64,000 bases of DNA from Levilinea saccharolytica (GTDB taxonomy: Bacteria; Chloroflexota; Anaerolineae; Anaerolineales; Anaerolineaceae): positions 1 to 64,000 of the forward strand of contig NZ_LGCM01000047.1 of NCBI RefSeq assembly GCF_001306035.1, given 5' to 3'. Of the stretch, positions 24,256 to 63,950 are shown piece after piece; position 1 is the first letter of the stretch, and every line of letters starts with the position of its first letter. The position numbers and the translations under genes are program-made. The notes beneath the pieces are model-generated. The model was not told the origin of the DNA, did not search any database, and was given only the letters and a program-made list of their open reading frames with translations.

Positions 24256-24349
24256 GGGAGTGGATGGATCCCGGTGGGTTCCCCGGTCTTCAAAACCGGT
24301 GGCGGGTCGCGTTGCGGGCCGCGGTGGGTTCGACTCCCATCCATTCCCG
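24256..24349 (+). tRNA. selC: Selenocysteine tRNA, anticodon UCA
   Basis: The 94-base sequence folds as tRNA-Sec. It has an 8-bp acceptor stem (GGGAGTGG at 24256-24263 with 24341-24348), a 5-bp T stem around TTCGACT, an anticodon stem CCGGT/ACCGG with the loop CTTCAAA placing TCA at 24290-24292, and a long variable arm of about 9 bp (GCGGGTCGC/GCGGGCCGC). The discriminator is G, and CCA is not encoded. The 8+5 stems and long variable arm separate it from tRNA-Ser and from suppressor-like tRNAs. It shows that this organism inserts selenocysteine at some UGA codons, though no selA, selB or selD is in the window. Confidence 0.95.
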
Positions 24350-24377
24350 CCTGCTGTTTATTTGGTTGGAGGTTTCT

Positions 24378-48793: not shown

Positions 48794-50425
48794 TCAAATT
48801 AAACCAGCCAGGCGAACCTCTTCTGAAATCGGCTGGCCGTCATCCCCCACCGCCACACAAGCCCCCTGCACCACGCGGGTCACCACCCGTCCGCGGCCAA
48901 AGGGATTGTTTCGCAATTGCGGCGCATCCAGAATGCCCATGCGCACCGCCCGCCCCAGGGTTTCGGGGCAGGTCCAGGCGTCGCTCACGCCGGGCATGGC
49001 CGCCGCCTGAATGGCCCGCAGCGTCACCTGCGCCTCATCTGCCAAAAACGCCGCTCGCTCCTGCACCTTGGGGTCCAAGCGCATATCCGGCGCGCCGCGC
49101 ACAGCGTTTTCGATCGTCCGGCGCGCCATGCGGCAGGCTTCCACCACATCTTCGGCCGTGGCCGCGTGATCGGCTTCCGTATGCCCCACCACATGCACAA
49201 TATGGGGCTGCAAAGCCATTTGCACATAGATGCTGGCTGCCAGGTGGGCGCGTGCCGCCGCGGGGTCCAGCGGGTAACTCAGCAGGCCCGTGCGCGTCTG
49301 CCGCCAGATGCGGAAATCCGGCCCGGCCAGCGGTTCAATCAGGCGCAGCACCGCCAGCATCTTGGCCAAATCCATCGCGTCCGACACCCCCGGCGGGCTG
49401 TTGAACATCAACTGGGCGATGTAATCGCGCACCCCGAAGGCGCGTGCGTTGTAGGCCGCCAGGAAGGCCGACACCACATACACCACATCCGGTGCATCGC
49501 GCATACCCCAATGGTGGGGCTCATTCAGCTCCACCGGCAGGCCGCGCTGACCGTACCAGGCCATCACCGCCTGATGCTCGCGGATCGAGCCTTCCAAATC
49601 CCACGGCCCGCGCCCGTCCATCTGGTTGAACCAGAACAGCGGGATGGCGCACCAGGCGATATGGATGGTATCTATGTACATTTCAGCCAGGCGGATAAAA
49701 TCATCCGTGCCCGAATAGGTGCGCAGCAGTGGGAAGTTCCCCCGGCGGCTGGCGGCGTACAGGCTGGCGTAATCGCCCGGGCTGCGCACCGGCACGCCGC
49801 CCGCCCCCTTGCGCCGCGGGTTTTGGCGTTCGGGCCTAAAGAAGTTCTCCTGGGCATCCTGGTCAATCCCCAGCGAAATCACATCCACCAGCCCACTTTC
49901 CGCGATGTGCTCAATCCCTTCGCGGGTGTCCTCCAGGCTGGCCAGGCCAAAGTGATGGCGAATGAGCGGATAGGGCGCCTTCCACAGGATGCGCTCCACC
50001 GCAGTTTGCGGCGGCTTTTCCTGTTGGCCGCCGCCCGCCCCCTCACCGCGCAAATACGTCAGCACCGCTTCGTCCGCCTCGCCGCCCTGAAAGATGCGCT
50101 CAAAAAAGCCCAGCTTTTCGGCCCGCTCGGCCACCGGCGGCGTGCCCGCAAAAGCAAAGCGCACCCCGCGGCTGTGCAGCTCATCGGCCGCCTCGGCAAA
50201 TTCACCCAGCAGGCGCTCGCCTGTCTCCGGCGTCAGGCGGTACGACACACCCACCAGCGCCGCGTCCTCTTCTTTAGCAGCCTTCAGCACCACCTCGATG
50301 GGCACAGCCGGCCCCAGAAAAACCGTACGCCACCCGGCCAATTCAGCCAGGCGCAGGAAATTGCTCACCCCGGCCACGTGCACACATTCCCCCAGAGCCG
50401 CCGCAACAACCGTCTTTTTCATCAT
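48794..50425 (-). CDS. Cobalamin-binding protein fused to a mutase-like TIM barrel
   Basis: Residues 1-135 form a B12-binding-like Rossmann domain (ECVHVAGVSNFLRLAELAGW...FLGPAVPIE...LVGVSYR). The DxHxxG cobalamin loop is altered to ECVHVAG, still offering the lower-ligand His. Residues about 170-440 resemble the glutamate/methylaspartate mutase catalytic barrel (SLGIDQDAQENFF, ELNEPHHWGMRDAPDVV, LMFNSPPGVSDAMDLAKML). In glutamate mutase these are separate subunits; here they are fused in the order B12 domain-barrel. The substrate is unknown. AGGAGGT precedes the ATG. A structured leader precedes it. Confidence 0.65.
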   Translation of the reverse strand: MMKKTVVAAALGECVHVAGVSNFLRLAELAGWRTVFLGPAVPIEVVLKAAKEEDAALVGVSYRLTPETGERLLGEFAEAADELHSRGVRFAFAGTPPVAERAEKLGFFERIFQGGEADEAVLTYLRGEGAGGGQQEKPPQTAVERILWKAPYPLIRHHFGLASLEDTREGIEHIAESGLVDVISLGIDQDAQENFFRPERQNPRRKGAGGVPVRSPGDYASLYAASRRGNFPLLRTYSGTDDFIRLAEMYIDTIHIAWCAIPLFWFNQMDGRGPWDLEGSIREHQAVMAWYGQRGLPVELNEPHHWGMRDAPDVVYVVSAFLAAYNARAFGVRDYIAQLMFNSPPGVSDAMDLAKMLAVLRLIEPLAGPDFRIWRQTRTGLLSYPLDPAAARAHLAASIYVQMALQPHIVHVVGHTEADHAATAEDVVEACRMARRTIENAVRGAPDMRLDPKVQERAAFLADEAQVTLRAIQAAAMPGVSDAWTCPETLGRAVRMGILDAPQLRNNPFGRGRVVTRVVQGACVAVGDDGQPISEEVRLAGLI

Positions 50426-52453: not shown

Positions 52454-53533
52454 TCAACGGTCTGTGCAGGAACAGCACGGATCCACCGAAGCCTGAATAA
52501 TGGCCATATCGCCCAGCGCCTGGCCGCGCGCCATGGCCCGGATGGCAGGCAGGTTCAAATCAGATGGGGTGCGGATCTTCACCCGCGCCGGGGTGTCAGA
52601 ACCGTCGCTTTTCAGGTAATACACCACTTCGCCGCGCGGCGCCTCGACCCGCATCATGGTTTCACCCGGCGGGACAACGGTCACCAGCTCGCTGGGGCGG
52701 ATCGGTCCGCCGGGCAGCTCCAACAGCGCCTTTTCAATCAGCCGGCAGCTTTCCAGCATTTCCAAAGCGCGCACCACCACCCGCGCGGTCACATCGCAGC
52801 TGTCCTGAGTCACAATCTGGAATCCCAAATCTTCATACGCCGCATAGGGGAAATCCTGACGCACGTCAATGGCCAGCCCCGAAGCGCGGGCAATTGGTCC
52901 CACCACGCCGTACGTCACCGCCTCATCCCGCGTCAGAATGCCTACTCCGCGCGTGCGCCCCAGGATGGTTCGGTTTTGGGTGAAGATGGGAATCACCGTT
53001 TTTTGAATGCCCTCGCGAATGGAACGCACCGCCCGAAGAACCCCCTCTGGGTCGGTGATATCGCGGTTCACCCCGCCGATGCAGTTCATGGCATAGTTCA
53101 CGCGGTTGCCTGAAATGGCTTCCAGCACATCCATCACCTGTTCCCGCAGCGCATAAATCTCCATGAACATGGTTTGAAAGCCAATGTCCTCCGAGCCAAT
53201 GCCCGCCCACAGCAAGTGTGAATGCAGCCGTTCCAATTCTGCCATGATCGTGCGGATGAAGCGCGCCCGATCCGGCACCTGCATTCCCGCGATCTCTTCG
53301 GCGGCCATGCAAAAGGTCAGGGTGTGGATGTTGGAGCAAATACCGCACACGCGCTCCACCAGCACCAAATCCTGAATATAATTGCGCCGCTGGGCCAGCA
53401 GCTCGATCCCGCGGTGAACAAAACCCACCTCAATGGTGACGTCTTCCACAATTTCGCCCCTGCTTTGAATGCTGAGTTTATATGGCTCTTCTAAGGCAGG
53501 GTGATAAGGGCCAATGGGAATTCGAAAAGGCAT
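52454..53533 (-). CDS. Group 4 [NiFe] hydrogenase large subunit
   Basis: The 359-residue catalytic subunit has both nickel-binding motifs: RVCGIC (Cys63, Cys66) and DPCCSC (Cys353, Cys356), which separates it from complex I NuoD, where these cysteines are lost. It therefore binds Ni-Fe and makes or uses H2. The chain ends at Asp-Arg right after the second motif, so no C-terminal peptide needs cleavage by a maturation endopeptidase. The NuoC-like domain that is fused in HycE is a separate gene here. It is last in the AOR-hydrogenase operon; AGGAG precedes the ATG. Confidence 0.93.
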   Translation of the reverse strand: MPFRIPIGPYHPALEEPYKLSIQSRGEIVEDVTIEVGFVHRGIELLAQRRNYIQDLVLVERVCGICSNIHTLTFCMAAEEIAGMQVPDRARFIRTIMAELERLHSHLLWAGIGSEDIGFQTMFMEIYALREQVMDVLEAISGNRVNYAMNCIGGVNRDITDPEGVLRAVRSIREGIQKTVIPIFTQNRTILGRTRGVGILTRDEAVTYGVVGPIARASGLAIDVRQDFPYAAYEDLGFQIVTQDSCDVTARVVVRALEMLESCRLIEKALLELPGGPIRPSELVTVVPPGETMMRVEAPRGEVVYYLKSDGSDTPARVKIRTPSDLNLPAIRAMARGQALGDMAIIQASVDPCCSCTDR

Positions 53534-53542
53534 CGTAATCTC

Positions 53543-53983
53543 CTAAACCATCTCACCGCGGGCAGCTTTTCCAGCCGCGCCGCCCGGTTCGCGATAATAT
53601 CCAGCCGTCAATTTTGACGGGCGCAGCAGCGGCTTTGGATCGGGGTGGCCGTCAAACACCACCGCGTACAGATCCATAATCTCGCGCTCAATCCAATTCG
53701 CCGCCGCCGTGATGGGCGTGATCGTGGGCAAATGATTCCCCTGTGTGCAGGTTTTGATATGCAGACCTTGTTTGCCGCAAATCCAATGATAAATCACTTC
53801 GGTCTCACCGTTTGGCAGTGCCAGCGCGGTCATGGTGCTCAAACGGGCCTCCGCCGCCAACAAAGCCTGAGCCGCCGCCCGAACATCCACCGCCGGAGCC
53901 TGCAGCCACAGCTCATGCTCCGACCGCTGCTCCCATGCTGCTCCTGCGATCTGTTCAATTTGTATCCTCAAGGTTTCGTTCAT
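53543..53983 (-). CDS. NuoC/HycE-N-terminal-like 30 kDa-type hydrogenase subunit
   Basis: The 146-residue protein corresponds to the NuoC domain (ALPNGETEVIYHWICGKQGLHIKTC, then ITAAANWIEREIMDLYAVVFDGHPDPKPLLRPSKL). In complex I and group 4 hydrogenases it packs beside the large subunit. GGAGTG precedes the ATG. The ERE.MDLYGI/VxFxGHPD signature is intact. Confidence 0.88.
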   Translation of the reverse strand: MNETLRIQIEQIAGAAWEQRSEHELWLQAPAVDVRAAAQALLAAEARLSTMTALALPNGETEVIYHWICGKQGLHIKTCTQGNHLPTITPITAAANWIEREIMDLYAVVFDGHPDPKPLLRPSKLTAGYYREPGGAAGKAARGEMV

Positions 53984-54005
53984 GGCTTCACTCCAAGCAC
54001 ACAGC

Positions 54006-54512
54006 CTACCTGCCAGTAAATCCGCGTTTCACCGCCTCGCTGGTCACTTTCTTGCGGCAGCGGGTACATAACCGATTCAAGGCAGCCATCTCCGTCGGAA
54101 CCGGAAAACCGTACTGTTTTTCCAACACCGCATCCGGCAGCGGGATCATCTCTGCCCCGCAGCGCGTGCAGGGGAAGGTTTCAATCTCATGCCGGGTTAG
54201 CTCCAGGCTGTGCACCAACAGCTGAGGGGTCGTGCCAAAAGACAGCGCATCGGTCGGGCAGCTTTCCACGCAGCGCCCGCAGTAGGTGCACTGCAGCATC
54301 TGATACTGCCAGGCCGCTCGCCCCAGCTGACTGCGGTCAAACGTGATCGCCCCCGGCGAACACACATAAGCGCAGGTCTCGCAGGCCACACATAGATTGG
54401 TCTCATGCACCAGATCAGCCCGAAAATTCTCAGGGACCGGCACCAAATCATCTGGCCGCCGTGTATGTGCGCGCTGCACAAAGTTATTCCGGATCAAATT
54501 CCAAATATTCAT
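54006..54512 (-). CDS. NuoI/HycF-like ferredoxin subunit with C-terminal zinc ribbon
   Basis: The protein of about 168 residues has two [4Fe-4S] motifs, CVACETCAYVCSP and CTYCGRCVESCP, linking the small subunit to an external donor. A C-terminal pair CTRCGAEM...CTRCRKK forms an extra zinc-ribbon-like or cluster site. The start at 54512 with GGGAGG upstream was chosen; an upstream start would add 24 residues unlike the family. Confidence 0.9.
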   Translation of the reverse strand: MNIWNLIRNNFVQRAHTRRPDDLVPVPENFRADLVHETNLCVACETCAYVCSPGAITFDRSQLGRAAWQYQMLQCTYCGRCVESCPTDALSFGTTPQLLVHSLELTRHEIETFPCTRCGAEMIPLPDAVLEKQYGFPVPTEMAALNRLCTRCRKKVTSEAVKRGFTGR

Positions 54513-54526
54513 CTGCGCTTCCTCCC

Positions 54527-55438
54527 TTATAACAGGGCTGCCAGAACCACGCAGCCCAGGGCAGCCAAAGCGCCCCAGGTCCAATAAAAACGGAACGCGC
54601 GGTGAATTTGCAGTCGGGCTGTCGCCGCGGCCAACACACTGGTGATGAGCACCAGCAGCAGTCCAGCGGCCAAATACAAAACCAGGTTTAGGCCTGCGCT
54701 GGGCAGCCGCGGGATAAACAGCACGCTGAACAAAGCCCCTACCGCCACAAATTCCAGCCCGTGCGCCAGCTCAAACAGCGCCAATGCCGGGCCGTTGTAT
54801 TCCACATGCGGGCCAGCCACAATCTCTTGCTCGGCGTTGGGGATGGAAAATGGGTTGCTCTTCAACCGCGCCGGTACGGCCAAAATAAACGCCGCGGCCG
54901 CCAAAACATGCACCGGTCCAAACGGCAATGCCAACACATCCACCATCCTGAAACTGTCCGCCTGGATGGCCAAAGCCGAAACCGCCGCAATAAAGGGCAG
55001 CGAATAGCCCAGGATCAGGGCCGCCTCTCGCGACGAACCAACCTGCCCGTAAATGGAGCGCGAGGCGAAACCAGCCAAAATATCGCAAAAAGCCGGCATT
55101 TCCATCAGGTACAGCACCAGAATGAGATCGCCGGTGAAAGAGGCGTTTAGCCCGCCCGGCAGCGGCATAACAGCCAACGCCAGGGTAATGGAAATCACCG
55201 CGGCCAGCGGCAAACCGTAATACAACAGCGGAGCCGTGCCCGCCGGAACCATCGAACGCTTTCCCAGCAGCTTGACGAAGTCAAAAAACGGTTGGTAAAA
55301 CGGCGGGCCAAAGCGGCGCTGCATCCTCGCGATCAGCGCACGGCTGAGCCACAAATACAGCCAGCCCAACAGCGCCCCCGCCAGCAGGCCCGGCCAAAGG
55401 AAATAGGCTGCCAACCCCTGGATCAGTCCGTTACTCAT
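54527..55438 (-). CDS. NuoH/HycD-like membrane subunit
   Basis: About 303 residues with eight membrane helices. The NuoH motifs MQRRFGPPFYQPFFDFVKLLGK, ELAHGLEFVAVGALF and the acidic loop EMPAFCDILAGF are present; the region forms the entrance of the quinone-like/E-channel that links the hydrophilic arm to proton pumping. Start ATG 55438 overlaps the small-subunit stop by 8 bases. The frame extends further upstream, but that part is antisense to the small subunit and has no family match. Confidence 0.9.
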   Translation of the reverse strand: MSNGLIQGLAAYFLWPGLLAGALLGWLYLWLSRALIARMQRRFGPPFYQPFFDFVKLLGKRSMVPAGTAPLLYYGLPLAAVISITLALAVMPLPGGLNASFTGDLILVLYLMEMPAFCDILAGFASRSIYGQVGSSREAALILGYSLPFIAAVSALAIQADSFRMVDVLALPFGPVHVLAAAAFILAVPARLKSNPFSIPNAEQEIVAGPHVEYNGPALALFELAHGLEFVAVGALFSVLFIPRLPSAGLNLVLYLAAGLLLVLITSVLAAATARLQIHRAFRFYWTWGALAALGCVVLAALL

Positions 55439-55901
55439 GGTGTTTCTCCTTATGCCAGCGGCCGGTTTTGCCTTCGGCCAGCAAATGCGCCGCTTCCTGC
55501 ACCCCGGCCAAAATCGCCTGGGGGCGCGGCGGGCAGCCCGGCACAAACACATCCACCGGAACCACATGCAGCACGCCGTCTTCCACAGTGGGGCTGCCGG
55601 CAAACACGTTGCCCGTAGCTGGGCACGAGCCCACCGCCACCACCGCCTTGGGCTCGGGGATTTGCGCGTAAATGCTGCGTACTGCATCAGCACTGCGCAG
55701 GGTCAGCGGGCCGGTGATGAGGAGGATATCAGCATGTTTCGGGCTTCCCTGCCGCAGCGCCCCGATCTGTTCCATATCGTAGCGCGGTGAAAGCAGCGAA
55801 CCGATCTCAATGTCACAGCCGTTGCACGACCCCGCGTTGAGCACATACACCCAGGGCGAGCGCCGCCGGGAGAGCTTTAAGATTGAAGAAAAGAGTCCCA
55901 T
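55431..55901 (-). CDS. [NiFe] hydrogenase small subunit (NuoB/HycG-like)
   Basis: The 156-residue protein has Cys26 and Cys29 (GSCNGCDIE), Cys93 (GSCPATG) and Cys123 (PGCPP), the four ligands of the [4Fe-4S] cluster (N2/proximal) next to the active site. Only one cluster is present, as in group 4 hydrogenases. AGGAG precedes the ATG. Confidence 0.93.
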   Translation of the reverse strand: MGLFSSILKLSRRRSPWVYVLNAGSCNGCDIEIGSLLSPRYDMEQIGALRQGSPKHADILLITGPLTLRSADAVRSIYAQIPEPKAVVAVGSCPATGNVFAGSPTVEDGVLHVVPVDVFVPGCPPRPQAILAGVQEAAHLLAEGKTGRWHKEKHHE

Positions 55902-55912
55902 CGTGCATACTC

Positions 55913-57073
55913 CTAAAATGCCAGCAGCCAGGCTGGAAACAACCCCAGCACAATCACCCCAACCGTCAGCAGCACCATCGTCAGACGCACGGCTTTCGGT
56001 TCGCCGCTCACCGCCTGGTGCTCATCCGCCGGTCCCAACCAGACGAGGTGGATTGCGCGCACGTAGTACAGCAGGGCTAAAACGGTCGCCGCTGCCATCG
56101 CCAGCCCCAGCCAAATGCCGCCCCATGCCACGCCAGATAGATACAGCCGCCAACGTCCCGCGAAACCGATCATGGGCGGCACTCCAATCATCCCCAGCGC
56201 CCCCACCACGAAAGCCGCCGCTGACCGCGGGAACCGGCATCCCAAACCGCGGTCAGCGAGTGTGACGGCGTGCCCCAACCCATTCTCGGCCGTGCCCACC
56301 GCGCTGAACAGCAGCAGCTTAAATAAGGCGTGCGCCGCAGCCCCCAACAGCGCGCCGCTGATGCCAATCTCTGACCCCACTGTTACCCCCAACAGCAGGT
56401 AGCCCATGTCGTCCAGGGTGGAAAAAGCCAGCAAACGGCGCAGGTTTTTCTGTCCCAATGCCAGCAGCGCGCCGACGAACATTGAAAGCAGCGCCGCTGC
56501 CAACCACACGGCCTGATGCTGCTCAAACACCCACGGCATCGCCTCGCGGAAATGCACCAGCTCGCGAAACGCGGCAATATCCACCACCGAGATAATCAAC
56601 ACCAGGCTCATCGGCGCCGCATTTTCAGCCACCATTGGCAGCCAAAAATACACCGGAACCAGGGCCAGCTTCAACGCAAACCCCACCAACAGCAGGGCGC
56701 TGACCACCTGATCCAACGGGTAAACCGGTTTTACCCCGCCTGCCAAACGCTCAGCCAGCAGCAAACAAAGCACGGCTGCCAGGGTCATCGTCAGGTACAG
56801 CCGCCCCGCCCTGCGCGCCGCCGGAGAGCGGTCTGCCAGGATCAAGCCCACGGCGCACAAAGCGGCGGCGTCCAACAGCAGCATACTCGCCGTGCCAGCC
56901 CCAGCCAGCGTACTGGCCAGGGTAAGCCCCACCACGGCCACCGAAAGGACCCACCAGCTTGCTCCCCCCTGGGGAATGGCGCGAGCGTACACCCAAACCG
57001 CCGCCGCAATCAGCGCAAACACAACGCTAAAGATCCACATCCAATTTGTGCTCACATCCGCCAATGCATTCAT
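55913..57073 (-). CDS. NuoN/HyfF-like antiporter-type membrane subunit
   Basis: The 386-residue subunit has about 11-12 membrane helices. The discontinuous-helix lysine motif is in LKLALVPVYFWLPMVAENAAP and the central lysine in AHALFKLLLFSAVG. The helix that carries a Glu in NuoN has Asp (LLLDAAALCAVG), and the C-terminal Lys position shows Arg (GFAGRWRLY). The subunit is shorter than NuoN (about 480). It would translocate protons or sodium beside the NuoL-like subunit. Confidence 0.85.
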   Translation of the reverse strand: MNALADVSTNWMWIFSVVFALIAAAVWVYARAIPQGGASWWVLSVAVVGLTLASTLAGAGTASMLLLDAAALCAVGLILADRSPAARRAGRLYLTMTLAAVLCLLLAERLAGGVKPVYPLDQVVSALLLVGFALKLALVPVYFWLPMVAENAAPMSLVLIISVVDIAAFRELVHFREAMPWVFEQHQAVWLAAALLSMFVGALLALGQKNLRRLLAFSTLDDMGYLLLGVTVGSEIGISGALLGAAAHALFKLLLFSAVGTAENGLGHAVTLADRGLGCRFPRSAAAFVVGALGMIGVPPMIGFAGRWRLYLSGVAWGGIWLGLAMAAATVLALLYYVRAIHLVWLGPADEHQAVSGEPKAVRLTMVLLTVGVIVLGLFPAWLLAF

Positions 57074-57088
57074 GCCAGGCTCGCTCCT

Positions 57089-58933
57089 TTACCAGATCCA
57101 CATTGCGGCCGCCAGGAGCAGCGCACCTACGATCCAGACCAAAACAGCGCGGTTTTCAAGCCCCCTGGCTCTGTCCGCCGCCCATCCAGCCGCCGCCTGC
57201 AGCCCGCGCCAAACGCCCATATACAGCGGGTCTGGGTCCAGTAGACGATACGCATCGCCAAATGTGGTGCCTGCCAGCTCCGAAAAATCCACCGCACCAA
57301 CGCGGTCTCCTTCGGGCAGCGGGTCGCCGCCGGTGAAAACCGGCACATCACTGCTGCGTGCCCGGCGGGTCAGACGGTAAAAAACCCAGCCTGCGCCAAA
57401 CGCCAACACCGTGATCCCAGCCGCGGCGGTGGTCAGGAGCGTCATCGCCCCCGTCTGCAGACCCAGCCAGGTCACCTCCACTGGCCAGGCCATGCCCAGA
57501 CCTTGGCCTGCCGGAACCACCAGCCATTTCATCAGCAGCTGCGGCGCAAGGCCAAAAACCAGAGCCAGCACCGCCAGGAAACCCATCCCCGCCAGCATGG
57601 TTGGAGAGGCGTCGTGGATGTCTTGCCCCCGAAGTTCATCCGGCAGCCGCCCATAGAAAACGCTCACGGTGGCTTTTAAGATATAAAAGGCGGTAAAGGT
57701 GCTCACCAGCCAGGCCAGCAGAACCACCAGGCCCTGCCCCGAAGTCAGCGCCGCTGAGTAAAGCAGCCATTTAGCCACAAATCCATTGGTCAACGGCACG
57801 CCGATGATGGCCGCCGCCGCCACCAGCCAGATGCGGTGCGTGCCCGGCATGCGCTGCTCCAACCCGCCCAACTGCCGCATGTCCCGCGTGCCGGTCGCGT
57901 GCTGCACGGCGCCCGCGCATAAGAACAACGTTCCCTTAAAAATTCCGTGACTCAGGCAGTAAAACAGCCCCGCAGCGATGCCGGCTGGCGTACCCAACCC
58001 CAACCCAGTGAGGATATACCCCAACTGGCTGATGGTGGAATAGGCTAACAGGCGCTTCAGATCCGTTTGCACCAGGGCAAACAGCGCCCCCACAATCATG
58101 GTCACACAGCCCAACGCCATCACCGCCGAGTTCCATTCCGGCTGCCAGCCGCCAAAGGAATACATGCGCGCTGCCAAATAAATCCCGGCCTTCACATAAC
58201 AAGCCGAGTGCAGCAGGGCCGATACCGGTGTGGGAGCGTTCATCGCTTCCGGAATCCAGGTGTGCAGCGGGAAAATGACCGATTTGGCCATCGCCGCAAT
58301 CAACATCAAGAAAAAGACCGCGCCGGTAAACGCGCCGCTCATCTCCGCGCTGGTCCATAAGAAGCTGCCTGTGGACTGATACACCAACAAAATCGCAATC
58401 AAAAAACCGTACCCAGCAGCATGGGTGATGATTAACACCTTGCGCGCCCCCACAGCAGCCTCTTTGCGCTGATACCAGAAACCGACCAGAAAGTAAGAAC
58501 ACAACCCGATGATTTCCCAGCACAGGTAGGCCACCAGTAAATTGGCCGAAAACACCAGGCCCACCAGCCCGCCGATGAAAGCTAACATCAGGCCGTAAAA
58601 ACGCGTGGTACCCGTCTCTTCATGCGCCATGTAGGTGATGCAGTACAGCAGAATGGCAGAGCCAATGCCCGTGGCCATCAGCGCGAAAATCAGGCTCAGC
58701 CCATCCACATAAAGCGCCAGCCCAACGCCCTCATCCCACCACCCCAGGTCAAACTGCACCGCTTGGCCGCCCTGGATGGATGGGATCAACGCCAGCACGG
58801 CCCCAAACGCGGTCAGCCCAGCGATAAACGCCAGCCGGCCTTTCCAACGCCTGCTCAAAATCCGGCCTAACGCCAGTTCCAGCAGGATCCCCAGCAACAA
58901 CGCTGCAAACGGAATGACCACCAGAGTTCTCAC
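57089..58933 (-). CDS. NuoL/HyfB-like antiporter-type membrane subunit
   Basis: The 614-residue subunit has about 14-16 membrane helices with the conserved Glu (CWEIIGLCSYFLVGFW), Lys (AMAKSVIFPLHTWIPEAM), the HTWxPEAMxxPTPVSALLHSA loop, a Lys in HGIFKGTLFL and one in NGFVAKWLL, so all the proton-path charges are present. GTG start at 58933 with GGAG upstream; an ATG two bases away runs straight into TGA. A long C-terminal extension includes a lateral-helix-like stretch. It begins the hydrogenase part of the operon. Confidence 0.92.
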   Translation of the reverse strand: MRTLVVIPFAALLLGILLELALGRILSRRWKGRLAFIAGLTAFGAVLALIPSIQGGQAVQFDLGWWDEGVGLALYVDGLSLIFALMATGIGSAILLYCITYMAHEETGTTRFYGLMLAFIGGLVGLVFSANLLVAYLCWEIIGLCSYFLVGFWYQRKEAAVGARKVLIITHAAGYGFLIAILLVYQSTGSFLWTSAEMSGAFTGAVFFLMLIAAMAKSVIFPLHTWIPEAMNAPTPVSALLHSACYVKAGIYLAARMYSFGGWQPEWNSAVMALGCVTMIVGALFALVQTDLKRLLAYSTISQLGYILTGLGLGTPAGIAAGLFYCLSHGIFKGTLFLCAGAVQHATGTRDMRQLGGLEQRMPGTHRIWLVAAAAIIGVPLTNGFVAKWLLYSAALTSGQGLVVLLAWLVSTFTAFYILKATVSVFYGRLPDELRGQDIHDASPTMLAGMGFLAVLALVFGLAPQLLMKWLVVPAGQGLGMAWPVEVTWLGLQTGAMTLLTTAAAGITVLAFGAGWVFYRLTRRARSSDVPVFTGGDPLPEGDRVGAVDFSELAGTTFGDAYRLLDPDPLYMGVWRGLQAAAGWAADRARGLENRAVLVWIVGALLLAAAMWIW

Positions 58934-58963
58934 ATTGCGCTCCTGAAGTAATCAGATACAAGC

Positions 58964-59239
58964 CTAACCGCCGGCGACCGGCGGGAATATGCAAATTTCA
59001 TCCTCGGGCGAAAGCGGAGTATCCACCCAGGCCCCATCCCGGATATCTTTCCCATTGATCAGGATAATGGCGATGGTGGATATACCGCCCTCCGGCGTGC
59101 GGATCCAGCGCGAAAAACCTGGGCCGTAGCGCTGACACAAAACCTCTAACAGGTCGCCAATCGTGGCGGCGGGTTGGCTGTAGTGCTCGGCGGCTGTGTG
59201 GGTGGTGTCGCGTAAATAAGCAAAATACTTAATTTTCAT
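58964..59239 (-). CDS. MoaD-like protein of the aldehyde oxidoreductase operon
   Basis: This 91-residue beta-grasp protein starts MKIKYFAYLRDTT and ends in PPVAGG, a normal free Gly-Gly for thiocarboxylation, so it can supply sulfur to tungstopterin/molybdopterin. The start at 59239 was chosen because the homology begins there; an upstream start is 24 residues longer. Genes of this type are often adjacent to AOR genes. It lies between AOR and the hydrogenase subunits. Confidence 0.88.
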   Translation of the reverse strand: MKIKYFAYLRDTTHTAAEHYSQPAATIGDLLEVLCQRYGPGFSRWIRTPEGGISTIAIILINGKDIRDGAWVDTPLSPEDEICIFPPVAGG

Positions 59240-59258
59240 CGCCAACTGCCATCCAGAC

Positions 59259-59295
59259 GCAACCCCTCTTCCGGAGAAACCGGTCGAGGGGTTGC
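59259..59295 (-). promoter_or_regulatory. Intercistronic hairpin between AOR and MoaD genes
   Basis: A perfect 10-bp stem (GCAACCCCTC at 59259-59268 with 59286-59295) with an inner CCGG/CCGG pairing and no T-run. It may end-protect the AOR mRNA or mark a processing site. Confidence 0.55.
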
Positions 59296-59326
59296 TTGAA
59301 TTCATCCGCAATACCTGGATGCCGTC

Positions 59327-61132
59327 TTAGGCCAGCCCCAGGGTTTCCAACCGTTCAGCAGAGGGAACACCGTTGGCGTCCCACCCGCGCAGATCATAAT
59401 ATACGGGCAGCATTTCATTCAGGTGGCTGACTTCACCCTTCGACGGTCCCGTTTTGATCGGCTCATGCAGCAACCGTTCCGGCAGCACATCGTCATTGCT
59501 GCTTAAGCCGGCCGCCAAATTCCACATGCGTTCCAGGTTCCAAATGCGCTCGCCGGCTTTCATGAAATCGGCCGTGCTGTAGGGAATGCCCGTCGCACCG
59601 CTCAACAAAGCTGCCAGTTCATCCCCACCAATGCCAAAGGTGGCAAACAGGCAGGCGCCGGTCGAGTCCAGAGCTGCAGTCAGGTTCTGGAAGGTGATCA
59701 CCAGGTCCGGCTTGCCTTCGGTGGTGTGCTGATCCATCTTCACCGGGTTGCCCAACACCTCCACGGCGATGGTATAGCCGCGCACGTGGCAGCCGCCGCG
59801 GTTGCTGGTGGCGTAATGCAGACCAATACCCTGCACACCGCGCGGGTCATAAGCCGGCATTTCCTGTTTCTTGCAGGACATGGAATATTCCGGGTGGCCG
59901 TAAGCATCTGCCAAACGCCAGGAGCCGTCCGCCATCTTATCACCGAAGCCTTCACGGTTGCCCATCATCTTTACCAGCTCAACCATCACCTCAGCGTTCC
60001 CAAAATTGAGCGGGATCCCGCCGGTATCCTTGAGAGTGATGATGCCCGCCTCGTACAGATCCATCGCGCAGGCAATGGTGGTGGCAGTCGAGATGGTGTC
60101 CAGGCCGAGATCGTTGCACAGGAAATTGGCTTTGATGATCGCGTCCAAATTATCAATGCCGCAGTCCGCCCCAAAGCCCCAGGCGCTTTCGTATTCAGGG
60201 CCTTCGCCTTCACCTGCGAATTTGGGATTGGTCACCTTGGTGGCGCGCCCGCATTCGATGATGCAGGAATGGCAGCCGCGCGGACGAAGCAGGTTATTGG
60301 CCGCCAGCGCCTCGCCGCCCGTCTTATCGGCGGTGGGGAAATACCCATCCTGGAAATTGCGGGTTGGGAGCGAGCCAACGCTGTTGAGGATGTTCACCAA
60401 CACGTCTGTACCGTAAGCCTTCAGGCCCGTGCCGCCCACCGGATGCGCTTTGATCTTGGCCGCAGCGTCTTTGGCTGCCGCCGCAAAGGCGTCTTTATCG
60501 GCAACGGAAACCCCGCCCGTGCCCACGACGGCGATGGCTTTCAGGTTCTTAGAGCCCATCACGGCCCCAACGCCCGAACGCCCAGCCGCACGCCCCATTT
60601 CGTTCATCACCGAAGCGATGAAAGAAAGCTTCTCACCCGCGGGGCCAATGCAGGCTACCTTTGCGTCCTCATCCGTCTCCGCCCGCAAAAGGTCGGTGGT
60701 TTCAGGCACTTCCTTGCCCCAAAGGGCGCTGGCGTCGCGCAGCTCCACCTGGTCATTGTGGATCCACAAGTACACCGGAGCAGGGGCCTTGCCCTCGAAG
60801 ATGATCATGTCGTAACCCGCATACTTCAGCTCCGGGCCAAACGAACCGCCCGAATTAGAAGCAGCGATGGCGCCCGTCAGCGGGCTTTTGCAGACCACAT
60901 CGTAGCGGCCCACATTGGGCGCGAACGTACCGGTGAGCGGGCCGGCGGCAAAGAACAGTTTATTCTCCGGCGAAAGCGCGTCAATGTTGGGGTCAACTTC
61001 ATCGAACAGCATTTTCGCAGCCAGGCCGCGTGCGCCGATGAAAGCGCGGGCGGCTTTCACATCCAACGGTTCTTTTTTAATCGTGCCGTTGGTCAAATTC
61101 ACTCGCAGAATCGTACCCGTCCAGGCGTTCAT
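59327..61132 (-). CDS. aor: Aldehyde:ferredoxin oxidoreductase, tungsten-containing family
   Basis: The 601-residue enzyme has the AOR N-terminal domain ([13 protein letters not shown], then [24 protein letters not shown]) that binds bis-pterin. Its [4Fe-4S] cysteines are CHSCIIEC and a distal Cys in [10 protein letters not shown]. It oxidises aldehydes to acids, reducing a ferredoxin-like partner. Its ATG overlaps the stop of the four-cluster protein gene (TAATG), so the two are coupled; that protein is the likely electron acceptor. Confidence 0.95.
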
Positions 61133-61611
61133 TAAGCCACCTCCTGGAATGCATCCTTAAATTTCTTTGCAAAGGATTTCTTGCGCGCGCGGGTGGAAAC
61201 GGTCACATCCACATACTCCAGCGCATGGTTGGGGCAAACCGCCACACATTCCGGCGCTCCGGCGCAGGTGTCGCACTTAAGAATCTTGTTGGTCACCATA
61301 TCGTAGCTCGCGTTGCCAAACGGGCAGGCCTGCACGCACATGCGGCAGCGGATGCATTTGTTGACATCGTATTCGACCACGATTGTGCCGTCCGGGCGGT
61401 GCATTGCGCCGGTCGGGCAAACCGCCACACACGGTGCGTCATCGCACTGTTGGCAGAGCATGGGAACCGAAAACTGCTCGCGTTCCCAGTTATACACATG
61501 AACGCGGCTGGCCGAAGGGCGCGCCTCGCCTTCGCGTGTAAACGCGCAGGCCAAAACGCACATATTACAGCCCGTGCAGCGTTCGGGGTAAATCATGATC
61601 ACCTTTGACAT
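61132..61611 (-). CDS. Four-cluster [4Fe-4S] electron-transfer protein (HycB/AorB-like)
   Basis: The 159-residue protein has sixteen cysteines arranged as four cluster motifs: [37 protein letters not shown] and [15 protein letters not shown]. It is of the same kind as HycB/HybA and FdhB-type subunits that wire a molybdenum or tungsten enzyme to a membrane partner. It is the first gene of the AOR-hydrogenase operon and is predicted to carry electrons from AOR to the hydrogenase NuoI-like subunit. No signal peptide, so cytoplasmic. Confidence 0.92.
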
Positions 61612-61817: not shown

Positions 61818-62477
61818 TTAATAAACGCCGTGATCGGCCGAATTCTGCCCCACCAGATGGTGCTGCACGCCGTAGGCAATCGCCTCAGCGCGGCTGTTGA
61901 CCCCCAGCTTCGAAAGCACCCGGCTGACATGATATTTGACGGTTGACACCCCCACCACCAACACCGCAGCAATCTCGGCATTGGTCTTGCCCTCCAGCAG
62001 CAGTCGGTACACTTCCCACTCGCGTTCCGTCAGTTCCTGATGCAGCGGGGTGGCGCCCTTTTGCTGAATCAGCGTCGTGGTCGCCTCGCTCGAAAGAGTG
62101 GTTTTCCCACTTTTGGCCGCGCGGATGGCCTCAGCCAGTTCGGCTGCCTGGGCGCTTTTGAGCATATACCCCACGGCTCCGGCCTCCAACACATCCTGAA
62201 CGAGCTGGGTATCCAAAAAACTGGTCAAGGCAATCACCTGTGTATGCGGGCAGGCCCGCCGGATCGCGCGTGTGGCCTCCACGCCCGACATCCCCGGCAT
62301 CATCAAGTCCATCAGCACCACATCGGGACATTGAACGGCGCAAAATTGCAGCGCCTCCTGGCCGCCGGCAGCCTCCCCCACCAGATTCAAGTCTGGAAAC
62401 GCCAGCAAGAACAGGCGCAGCCCGCCGCGCACCACCGCATGATCATCCACTACCAATACAGAAATTCGCTCGCTCAT
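61818..62477 (-). CDS. NarL/LuxR-family response regulator
   Basis: The 219-residue protein has a receiver (VLVVDDHAVVR, phosphoacceptor in VLMDLMMPGMSG) and a C-terminal LuxR-type helix-turn-helix (LTEREWEVYRLLLEGKTNAEIAAVLVVGVSTVKYHVSRVL). It lies downstream of the sensor kinase gene with a 21-base gap, and next to the AOR-hydrogenase operon on the same strand. It is the likely regulator of that operon. Confidence 0.92.
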   Translation of the reverse strand: MSERISVLVVDDHAVVRGGLRLFLLAFPDLNLVGEAAGGQEALQFCAVQCPDVVLMDLMMPGMSGVEATRAIRRACPHTQVIALTSFLDTQLVQDVLEAGAVGYMLKSAQAAELAEAIRAAKSGKTTLSSEATTTLIQQKGATPLHQELTEREWEVYRLLLEGKTNAEIAAVLVVGVSTVKYHVSRVLSKLGVNSRAEAIAYGVQHHLVGQNSADHGVY

Positions 62478-62498: not shown

Positions 62499-63746
62499 TT
62501 ACCAAACAATTTCCACCCGAGTGCCTGCCCCGGGTTGGGTGTGAATGTCCATGCGGCCGTTAAAGCCGTCCACGCGCTCCTGGATAATGCGCAAGCCCAT
62601 GTGATCGCTGGTGACGGCTTTCTGATCGAAGCCGCGCCCATTATCCACCACCACCAGCCGGACGCATTTTCTGCACTGACGGCAGTGCAGCTTGGAAAGC
62701 TTTCTCTGCGGATCAGGGTCGGCGTGTTCCAGGATCACCTGCACCTCAGAGGCCTGGGCGTGCTTTTCAATGTTATGCAGCAGCTCCTGGGTGATGCGGT
62801 ACAGCCCAATTTTCACGTCTGCCGGCATCTGGCACTCAAAGTGCTCGGCCCTGAGGCTGGCCTTTACCCGCGTACGGCTGGAAAAGGCATCCACTTGATG
62901 CCGCAGCAGGGTGAAAATATCCGCCGAAAGCAGCGCCTCGGGCCGCAGCTCAAACAACAGCATACGCATCTCCGCCAGCGCCCCGCTGGCCAACTGCCGC
63001 ACCTCCTGCAGCGCCATGCGGCCGTTGGCCTCGTCCTGTTCCCACAAAACAGGCAGCGCATCCGCAATCAGCGAAGCCGAGAACAACGTCTGCGTCACGG
63101 TATCATGCAGGTCGCGCGCCAGGCGGTCGCGTTCCGAAAGGACAGCGGCCTGCGCCAAACGCTCCCCCATACGCGCATTCTCAATCGCCAGCACCGCCTG
63201 ATCGCTGTAGGCGCTGGCAATTGCGATATCTTCGTCATTAAATTGCTGGGGGGTGTCGTAATACAGGTCCAGGGTCCCATACACCTCGCCCCTGGGAAAG
63301 ATCATCGGCACCGCCAGCAAAGCGCGGTAATGGGTGGAAAGCTGGAGCAGAATCGCCTCGCTGTCCTCATCCAAAGCCAGGTTGCGGTTTTTCAGACGCT
63401 GGTTTACATCACAAATCGTCATCGGCTTGCGCATCACCGCCGCGTTGCCGGTGGCCAAACGGCCAAAGGGAATGCGCGCCAGGCGGACATAGGTATCGCT
63501 CAGGCCTTCCTGAGCCTGAATTTGCATAATCCCGCTCTGATCCACCGGACGGTAAATCGCCACAGCCTGTGCAGAAAGCACCTCGCGCGCTTGATGCACG
63601 ATAAACTGCAGAATTTGATCCAAAGACCGGTTCGAATTCAGCACGCGCAGCGTCTCGCGCAGACTGAGCGCCACACGGTGTTCACGTTCCAGCCGAAGAC
63701 TTCGGCTGGCTGTGTCCAAAGGGGATGGGGGGAGCATGCTTTCCAT
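62499..63746 (-). CDS. NarX/LiaS-type sensor histidine kinase with GAF domain and Cys insertion
   Basis: The protein of about 415 residues has no membrane segment. It has a GAF domain (residues about 25-190), HisKA_3 (ARDLHDTVTQTLFSASLIADAL) and an ATPase domain (VVVDNGRGFD). Between the ATPase N-box and G1-box it carries CRQCRKC, seven residues with three cysteines, which the family does not normally have and which could bind metal or an iron-sulfur cluster. The ATG at 63746 lies seven bases after a TATAAT, so the mRNA is predicted to be leaderless. Confidence 0.85.
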   Translation of the reverse strand: MESMLPPSPLDTASRSLRLEREHRVALSLRETLRVLNSNRSLDQILQFIVHQAREVLSAQAVAIYRPVDQSGIMQIQAQEGLSDTYVRLARIPFGRLATGNAAVMRKPMTICDVNQRLKNRNLALDEDSEAILLQLSTHYRALLAVPMIFPRGEVYGTLDLYYDTPQQFNDEDIAIASAYSDQAVLAIENARMGERLAQAAVLSERDRLARDLHDTVTQTLFSASLIADALPVLWEQDEANGRMALQEVRQLASGALAEMRMLLFELRPEALLSADIFTLLRHQVDAFSSRTRVKASLRAEHFECQMPADVKIGLYRITQELLHNIEKHAQASEVQVILEHADPDPQRKLSKLHCRQCRKCVRLVVVDNGRGFDQKAVTSDHMGLRIIQERVDGFNGRMDIHTQPGAGTRVEIVW

Positions 63747-63753
63747 TGAAGGT

Positions 63754-63759
63754 ATTATA
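63754..63759 (-). promoter_or_regulatory. -10 element of the sensor kinase gene
   Basis: TATAAT on the minus strand seven bases before the ATG. A GGAC-N2-GTCC sequence just upstream resembles in part the operators at the AOR promoter. Between 63768 and 63950 I see no gene that I can support; one frame on the minus strand reads protein-like for about 45 residues (AAYRRTHPYIAAHPTRWSLG) without a start codon. Confidence 0.45.
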
Positions 63760-63950
63760 GAGGACAAGTCCGCAAGGGGGTATGGATAGAAATAACCCTT
63801 TAGGGAACTTTCTGTCGTGTTTTTTCAGGGGCAGGGCCTGAGCCGCCAGGGCTTTAGTATCACCCAGGCTCCAACGGGTTGGATGGGCCGCGATATACGG
63901 ATGAGTGCGCCGGTAGGCAGCTTCACCGCGGATGAAAAGTCAGCCACCCC

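Follow-up and report, generated by a model that had tools for sequence, protein, structure and literature searches.

The DNA analysed here (the window, 64,000 bases) comprises bases 1-64000 of contig 13 (78,406 bases) from the 4.23 Mb genome of Levilinea saccharolytica. On its minus strand, ten head-to-tail genes are transcribed from 61611 to 52454 and encode, in 5' to 3' order, a four-cluster ferredoxin (Fd4), a tungsten-type aldehyde oxidoreductase (AOR), a MoaD-like protein, NuoL-, NuoN-, NuoB-, NuoH-, NuoI- and NuoC-like proteins, and a [NiFe] hydrogenase large subunit (Table 1). Gene identities were taken from Pfam and NCBIfam profile matches. The intergenic gaps range from -8 to +87 nt (-1, 87, 30, 15, 11, -8, 8, 22 and 9 nt, 5' to 3'), and the gap between the NuoH- and NuoI-like genes is 14 nt if the latter starts at ATG 54512. 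A first-pass annotation made from the letters of the sequence had proposed an aldehyde hydrogenlyase here, and the ten genes on a single strand, their order, the outer coordinates and both CxxC nickel motifs were all confirmed. Its MoaD-like and NuoN-like assignments were right in identity and were corrected in detail, as the MoaD-like protein has 91 residues from its ATG and the NuoN-like protein is short (386 residues) with an incomplete set of channel residues. The MoaD-like protein probably serves cofactor assembly rather than being a subunit of the complex.

Table 1. Genes of the operon, the upstream regulatory pair and the alternative oxidase found in two related loci.
Feature	Position	Strand	Basis
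Fd4, four-[4Fe-4S] ferredoxin subunit, 159 aa; WorS/AorA type, HycB- or CooF-like position	61132..61611	(-)	PDB matches, 16 Cys
AOR, tungsten-type aldehyde oxidoreductase large subunit, 601 aa	59327..61132	(-)	AFOR_N E 8.5e-84, AFOR_C E 1.4e-149
MoaD/ThiS-like protein (WorX type), 91 aa	58964..59239	(-)	ThiS E 9.3e-15, moaD_arch 3e-18
NuoL-like membrane subunit, 614 aa	57089..58933	(-)	Proton_antipo_M, Proton_antipo_N
NuoN-like membrane subunit, shortened, 386 aa	55913..57073	(-)	Proton_antipo_M
NuoB-like hydrogenase small subunit, proximal [4Fe-4S], 156 aa	55431..55901	(-)	Oxidored_q6
NuoH-like membrane anchor, 303 aa	54527..55438	(-)	NADHdh E 1.1e-52
NuoI-like 2x[4Fe-4S] subunit, 168 aa, extra C-terminal CxxC...CxxC pair	54006..54512	(-)	Fer4
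NuoC-like subunit, 146 aa	53543..53983	(-)	Complex1_30kDa E 3.3e-17
[NiFe] hydrogenase large subunit (NuoD/HycE/MbhL-like), 359 aa	52454..53533	(-)	Complex1_49kDa + NiFeSe_Hases
LuxR-type response regulator, likely regulator of the operon	61818..62477	(-)	homologues upstream in other loci
GAF-domain histidine kinase, paired with the response regulator	62499..63767	(-)	GAF, HisKA_3, HATPase_c
MOP-type single-chain molybdenum aldehyde oxidoreductase, directly before Fd4	L056:1246-3999; L057:1133-3994		domain content

AOR loci were chosen for holding both an AOR and the large subunit, and their gene order was read afterwards. They came from a scan of 84,980 named genomes, in which the large-subunit matches were the best 80 of 575 confirmed candidates, from a plasmid collection and from genomes of the order Anaerolineales; the neighbourhoods of large-subunit loci were read by blastp against the proteins of the window and a few others. 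The same ten genes were present in at least 21 further loci, so that a single occurrence is refuted and 22 operons across five phyla are known with that of the window. Fd4, AOR, the NuoL-, NuoN-, NuoB-, NuoH-, NuoI- and NuoC-like genes and the large subunit lie on one strand in this order in all 21 loci. MoaD stands between AOR and the NuoL-like gene in 19 of them (about 1 kb from AOR in L059) and downstream of the large subunit in the other two, L067 of Syntrophobacteraceae and L090 of Aminicenantes. The remaining loci are eight of Chloroflexota (L031, the same contig as L053; then L051, L052, L055, L058, L059, L060 and L170), six of Pseudomonadota (L062 of Pinisolibacter and L196-L200, five Azospirillum plasmid loci from four strains) and five of Actinomycetota (L063, L064, L065, L072 of Streptomyces cavernae and L073). 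A partial case in G135 (L171), with Fd4 and AOR at a contig end, was kept outside the 21.

At the limits used, the plasmid collection held an AOR in 53 records and a relative of the large subunit in 195; above 60% identity there were five records for each, the identical five, all from Azospirillum, with an annotated run of ten genes and hypA adjoining in every one. The plasmid records of Azospirillum sp. B510 and Azospirillum oryzae KACC 14407 each have a single place that matches AOR. A chance neighbourhood or a single assembly artefact was ruled out by this recurrence in five phyla, isolates and plasmid records. In Streptomyces cavernae, a member of a genus regarded as aerobic, the operon lies on a 308-kb contig and has the same G+C content as its flanks (0.701 and 0.703), and contamination is therefore not suggested. 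The Syntrophobacteraceae operon looks foreign in origin by its composition, as its G+C content is 0.594 and that of the adjoining 2 kb or so is 0.49.

Residue conservation was read over 23 loci, namely the 21 AOR loci and two loci in which a molybdenum enzyme stands in place of AOR. The best PDB match of AOR was 9mqx_D, followed by 1aor_A. By alignment count, T242, E315, Y428 and H449 correspond to Thr243, Glu313, Tyr427 and His448 of Pyrococcus furiosus AOR, and they are retained in 21/21 AOR loci along with C287, C290, C294 and C494, which we take to be the cluster ligands. With AFOR_N and AFOR_C domains, the four catalytic residues and four cluster cysteines, the protein belongs to the AOR/WOR family. 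Since the family also includes P. furiosus ASOR, which acts on sulfonates, and Geobacter metallireducens BCR, which acts on benzoyl-CoA (PMC13328260), the AOR homologue might not act on free aldehydes, and the complex would then be a hydrogenlyase of another substrate. This we judge very improbable, considering that the Thr/Glu/Tyr/His residues named for the aldehyde-oxidising members (PMC13328260) are kept throughout the AOR loci and that the closest solved relatives carry the name of aldehyde oxidoreductases.

The 16 cysteines of Fd4 are arranged as four cluster-type sets and are retained in 23/23 loci. Its best PDB match was 9mqx_E (E 9.5e-48), and it matched the AorA of Aromatoleum aromaticum (8c0z_C, E 8.9e-32) and 6x6u_B above HycB (7z0s_B, E 3e-20). 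As judged from sequence, Fd4 is an AOR small subunit. The large subunit has RVCGIC near its N terminus and ends in DPCCSCTDR, and its Ni ligands C63, C66, C353 and C356 are retained in all 23 loci; its best PDB match was MbhL (6cfw_L, 9e-83), then HycE (7z0s_E, 8.4e-67). A HycI-type protease is not expected for it, because it has no C-terminal extension. HypD was present in 8/8 genomes tested. In the NuoB-like subunit C26, C29, C93 and C123 are retained in 23/23 loci, as are the eight cluster cysteines of the NuoI-like subunit, whose extra pairs are kept in 23/23 (one pair) and 22/23 (the other). The NuoL-like subunit retains E140, K217, H242, H329, K333 and K388 in 23/23 loci. In the NuoN-like subunit K135 is kept in 23/23, K252 in 21/23 and H248 in 17/23 loci, position 68 is variable and position 307 is R or H. 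We take these to be channel positions by comparison with complex I. Of the two antiporter-like subunits proposed to pump ions, the NuoL-like one has the full set of channel residues and the NuoN-like one does not; the operon appears to provide one intact ion channel and a shortened second antiporter-like subunit. In several relatives, e.g. the Actinomycetota loci, the NuoN-like part is fused to the NuoL-like part (about 1000-1080 aa).

The large subunit of the window has a counterpart at 98% identity in a Levilinea metagenome-assembled genome (MAG). In 201 genomes of the order, its own included, the best foreign matches were 67% (G128) and 57-58% (G090, G074 and G065), followed by a wide tier at 43-49%. 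Below it, a few matches lie at 38-39% and many at about 31-36%, the complex I NuoD of the same genome among the latter. Among 400 genomes of the phylum, the source genome alone passed E 1e-120, and this type of large subunit therefore occurs there rarely and in a scattered way. The source genome has a second large subunit of [NiFe] type (contig 27:18125-19195, L035), which is 48% identical and of a type widespread in the order. In a tree of 59 of the 101 gathered rows, a set without Azospirillum, rows of AOR type, CooS type and MOP type and rows without a module fell into one clade (99/100) apart from Escherichia coli HycE, clostridial rows, the 45% tier and NuoD. Counted on the starred branches, changes number at least five for AOR and four for CooS. 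The large subunit groups with [NiFe] hydrogenases and not with the NuoD of its genome, as the first-pass proposal required. A remnant of complex I was ruled out, since all four Ni ligands are kept and the genome's own NuoD, encoded elsewhere, lacks both Ni-ligand motifs; nor did the ten genes include NuoEFG. With the L1 and L2 CxxC motifs in a NuoD-like large subunit and NuoB-, NuoH- and NuoL-like subunits in the same operon, an arrangement repeated in the 21 further AOR loci, the enzyme has the features of a group 4 [NiFe] hydrogenase.

The modules beside this hydrogenase differ among its relatives. In the 41 loci L051-L091 (at least 53% identity, among the best 80 of 575), AOR was found in 15, CooS in five, a 918-954-aa molybdenum enzyme in two, AdhE upstream in two and no recognised donor module in 17, several of which end at a contig end. 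Within the available stretches of L092-L130 (39 loci at 46-51%, mostly Clostridia, from the same best 80), no AOR or CooS was recognised. The molybdenum enzyme lies directly before Fd4 in L056 and L057, both of Chloroflexota, and carries Fer2, Fer2_2, Ald_Xan_dh_C and MoCoBD domains in one chain. For L057 its best PDB matches were two aldehyde oxidoreductases, 1sij (1377 bits), the enzyme of Desulfovibrio gigas, and 1dgj (1309 bits); the next family scored 301. AOR and MoaD are both missing from these two loci, while MoaD is present in 21/21 AOR loci. Fd4 remains (59-62% identical to that of the window), and so do the seven hydrogenase genes, with the large subunit at 68%. Longilinea arvoryzae carries both versions, the MOP type in L057 and the AOR type in L060. 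As a control we used 13 loci of 15 other close MOP places in the order (64-75% identity). Fd4 was recognised beside MOP in none of the 13; L209 and L210 have no downstream side or too little of it, which leaves 11 informative loci there. It follows that Fd4 travels with the hydrogenase and MoaD with AOR, and that an unrelated aldehyde oxidase took over the oxidase slot from AOR or gave it up to AOR. Among the arguments drawn from sequence, this exchange is the strongest for a slot that would feed the hydrogenase via Fd4 and for an aldehyde as its substrate. The replacement of AOR by MOP, an aldehyde oxidase from an unrelated family, also speaks against the AOR acting on another substrate. The 159-residue protein had been cast in the role of HycB; it does stay with the hydrogenase when MOP replaces AOR, while its sequence is that of an AOR small subunit.

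A carbon monoxide dehydrogenase (CODH)-family protein adjoins the hydrogenase in six CooS-type loci of the same large-subunit clade (L034, L061, L069, L070, L075 and L091). A recognisable four-cluster ferredoxin of CooF type is present in L069, L070, L075, L091 and L032-L034. The catalyst of L033 and L034 is a Prismane/CO-dehydrogenase protein, which the four-cluster ferredoxin adjoins in L033. Such hydrogenase loci were found in Chloroflexota and in a Coriobacteriia MAG. The nearest plan is CO-linked and not, as had been proposed, formate-linked, since operons with CODH and CooF-like proteins lie inside the same large-subunit clade and E. coli HycE lies far from it. Two Acidobacteriales MAGs have a related hydrogenase operon with no recognised AOR or Fd4 alongside it; directly before this operon stands an AdhE-type gene with aldehyde/alcohol dehydrogenase domains (L071:969-3722 and L074:1540-4323).

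We compared this AOR with others of the order. In 301 genomes, four AORs were 72-100% identical to that of the window and the next was at 55%. All four follow Fd4; the whole hydrogenase is present in three, and the fourth ends at a contig end. No hydrogenase subunit was recognised in 16 regions around lower-scoring AORs, some on short contigs; ten are from other genomes (L172-L181, some contigs of 6-10 kb) and six from the source genome (L182-L187), where they cover seven of its eight further AORs. One of these (L186, contig 64:69462-78029) holds two equal-scoring AOR genes as mirror images with mirrored neighbours, an arrangement due either to palindromic duplication or to an artefact of the assembly. 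In a tree of 40 of 51 gathered AOR rows, the linked AORs and the G135 row separated from the rest with support of 100/99. In a second tree of 40 of 59 rows, to which Azospirillum and three AORs of other phyla were added and from which most very distant AORs were dropped, the linked clade had support of 83/76 and its split appeared in 80% of 200 bootstrap trees. Across the 22 operons, the pairwise AOR distances were correlated with those of the large subunit (Mantel r of 0.938), and 0/999 shuffles were as high. The large subunit gave r of 0.924, 0.937, 0.914 and 0.899 with the NuoB-, NuoH-, NuoL- and NuoC-like subunits, and AOR gave 0.867, 0.900, 0.882, 0.948 and 0.848 with the NuoB-, NuoL- and NuoH-like subunits, Fd4 and MoaD. 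The operon has therefore moved or descended largely as a unit, and contact between its products is not shown thereby.

The same genes could encode two separate enzymes, with AOR-Fd4 reducing a soluble ferredoxin that the hydrogenase oxidises and with co-transcription merely matching their amounts. Class II WORs, made up of WorL and WorS, are reported to use ferredoxin (PMC13328260), and Ech hydrogenases accept electrons from it (PMC9356269). Set against this arrangement, Fd4 remains with the hydrogenase when MOP replaces AOR while MOP lacks an Fd4 neighbour in the control loci (two of them without a usable downstream side), CooS and CooF occupy the same slot, and the linked AORs group apart from the sampled other AORs. 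As such, we regard two separate enzymes as unlikely and think it likely, from the sequence evidence, that the operon encodes one membrane-bound aldehyde:proton oxidoreductase, an aldehyde hydrogenlyase built on a group 4 hydrogenase. The core of the earlier proposal thus survived the gene-order and tree tests, with CO-linked rather than formate-linked operons as its nearest plan.

In this aldehyde hydrogenlyase, AOR, with one [4Fe-4S] cluster and a bispyranopterin cofactor presumably of tungsten rather than molybdenum, would oxidise an aldehyde to the acid at about -0.5 to -0.56 V. By homology to formate hydrogenlyase, AorABC and complex I, electrons would pass through the four clusters of Fd4 to the NuoI-like and NuoB-like clusters and on to the [NiFe] site, where protons would be reduced to H2 (-0.414 V). 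Given an aldehyde potential of about -560 mV (PMC9304861), or -505 mV for benzoate/benzaldehyde, and -414 mV for H+/H2 (PMC9295118), the drop is 91-146 mV, or 18-28 kJ per mol H2. Part of it would be conserved as an ion gradient by translocation through the NuoH-like and NuoL-like subunits, and it should suffice for one or two ions at the usual gradient. Replacement of the [NiFe] enzyme by H2 chemistry of AOR itself was rejected, as the A. aromaticum AOR uses H2 and is reported not to make it (PMC9295118).

The complex might also run in reverse, H2 and an ion gradient driving the reduction of a carboxylic acid to an aldehyde that an alcohol dehydrogenase then removes. AORs and group 4 hydrogenases are reversible, which counts for this direction. 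It would, however, be uphill by about 18-28 kJ per mol at standard conditions, and no alcohol dehydrogenase was found among the ten genes, to which the search was confined. CODH and MOP, the exchange partners, usually deliver electrons. MOP is described as an electron deliverer (PMC10223205), while the A. aromaticum AOR does reduce acids with H2 (PMC9295118). Reduction of acids therefore seems to us an improbable function, and we retain aldehyde oxidation.

Several points weigh against an aldehyde hydrogenlyase. The exchange argument rests on two related loci, whose MOPs are 83% identical. Support for the linked AOR clade falls to 83/76 once Azospirillum and the three AORs of other phyla are added, and the AOR trees left out the nearest AORs of other phyla, e.g. 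that of PDB 9mqx. AOR correlates less with the NuoB-, NuoH- and NuoL-like subunits (0.867, 0.882 and 0.900) than with the large subunit. In the large-subunit tree CooS, MOP and module-less rows stand in among those with AOR, so the hydrogenase is not tied to AOR. Finally, Fd4-like small subunits also accompany AORs reported to use ferredoxin or NAD, and Fd4 alone is therefore no proof of docking to the hydrogenase.

We compared the operon with known systems. It shares its slot plan with the CO-oxidising hydrogenase complexes of CooS, CooF and a group 4 hydrogenase, and the six CODH loci share its large-subunit clade; CooS is absent from the ten genes of the window and present in sister operons. 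The comparison covered the CODH loci gathered here. In contrast to the window, the Coo systems have a Prismane/CODH-family catalyst and no recognised MoaD-like gene, and L033 holds its NuoL- and NuoN-like parts in one 1004-aa chain, which are separate in the window. With E. coli formate hydrogenlyase (FdhF-HycBCDEFG) the operon shares an oxidase, a four-cluster ferredoxin, NuoB-, NuoH-, NuoI- and NuoL-like subunits and a [NiFe] large subunit. It differs in having AOR for FdhF, a separate NuoC (146 aa), an extra NuoN-like subunit and a large subunit without the cleaved C-terminal extension of HycE, which is distant in the tree; no FdhF-type formate dehydrogenase is among the ten genes. From its gene content, the system is a group 4 hydrogenase complex with an exchangeable oxidase, predicted to work like a hydrogenlyase and not a member of the formate hydrogenlyases. 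The best solved match of the large subunit is the P. furiosus Mbh (6CFW). The electron donor of Mbh is soluble ferredoxin, and Mbh includes an Mrp-type module, the extra genes of which are not among the ten.

More than 4,000 WORs have been sorted into five classes (I-V), none of which, in the excerpts available, is seen to include a [NiFe] hydrogenase, the mentions of 'hydrogenase' concerning other enzymes (PMC13328260). The operon shares with these classes WorL, a four-cluster WorS, a WorX-like neighbour and the catalytic residues of the aldehyde-oxidising members, and differs in its linkage to a [NiFe] hydrogenase and NuoL-, NuoN- and NuoH-like subunits. The WorL and WorS make-up of Class II is present, a class also defined by its ferredoxin acceptor. 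The NAD subunit WorN and the bifurcating subunits WorABC, by which Classes III and IV are defined (PMC13328260), are absent from the ten genes. The start of Fd4, read directly, shows neither the Tat signal nor the transmembrane segment on WorS that marks the membrane class, Class V (PMC13328260). For the D. gigas MOP, a homologue of which stands in L056 and L057, an aldehyde-to-H2 chain was reconstituted in vitro, consisting of four soluble proteins (MOP, flavodoxin, cytochrome c3 and hydrogenase) with no membrane complex (PMC10223205). As far as excerpts go, PMC9304861 describes an Mbh-Bfu hydrogenase and Wor-Bfu enzymes and not an AOR-hydrogenase operon, and PMC11291895, PMC4877987 and PMC7117926 treat group 4 hydrogenases, AORs or formate hydrogenlyase of Asgard archaea and other bacteria, the operon described here not being among them. 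We found no description of an AOR-hydrogenase operon or aldehyde hydrogenlyase in the open-licence literature, as far as excerpts allowed, most subscription papers lying outside the search.

Upstream of the operon lie the response regulator and the kinase. Homologues of both stand upstream in the same 6/8 other Chloroflexota AOR loci and in none of the remaining loci (27 searched, over upstream stretches of differing length); in L059 and L060 weaker homologues lie at another place of the locus. By this association, the LuxR-type response regulator likely controls the operon. A shared operator TGTCNNGACR was rejected: of 20 upstream stretches, that of the window has two sites and that of L051 one, and the remaining 18 lack it. 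By eye, inverted repeats of the type CTATACT/AAAG/TATAG (with variants) precede the operon in L031, L055, L058 and L170, and a similar repeat, TGTACGAAAGTACA, lies upstream of Fd4 in Pinisolibacter (L062); these repeats are possible operators. Scans for promoters and terminators gave three promoter-like sites against 4.1 expected and 25 terminator-like sites against 14.7 expected, neither count being decisive. Elsewhere in the window, 48794-50425 encodes a 543-aa protein without a Pfam match at 1e-8, and in L051, a Levilinea relative, an open reading frame of equal length (a match in length only) is present downstream of the operon. A selenocysteine tRNA gene at 24256-24351 was identified by ARAGORN and Rfam, from which the source genome may use selenocysteine.

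Taken all together, we lean towards a broader picture, held with less assurance than the hydrogenlyase itself, in which the hydrogenase forms a socket (the seven hydrogenase subunits with a four-cluster ferredoxin) that takes AOR, MOP or CODH with its own CooF. The aldehyde versions would be energy-conserving hydrogenlyases and a WOR class beyond the five published, found also in Streptomyces and on Azospirillum plasmids, and would allow use or detoxification of aldehydes without oxygen via H2. If so, free aldehydes would directly fuel a hydrogenase that pumps protons or sodium, and toxic aldehydes would probably be turned into acids and H2 with storage of energy; the energy drop would be larger than that of formate hydrogenlyase. 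Two unrelated aldehyde oxidases, of the tungsten and the molybdenum type, would have been swapped within one complex. Aldehyde-dependent H2 evolution would be predicted in some Azospirillum and one Streptomyces, and relevant isolates are Azospirillum sp. B510, Azospirillum lipoferum 4B, Longilinea arvoryzae KOME-1 and Ornatilinea apprima P3M-1. For the AOR/WOR family, where a role has been defined for members of only 5/92 clades (PMC13328260), the operon would add a respiratory-like role.

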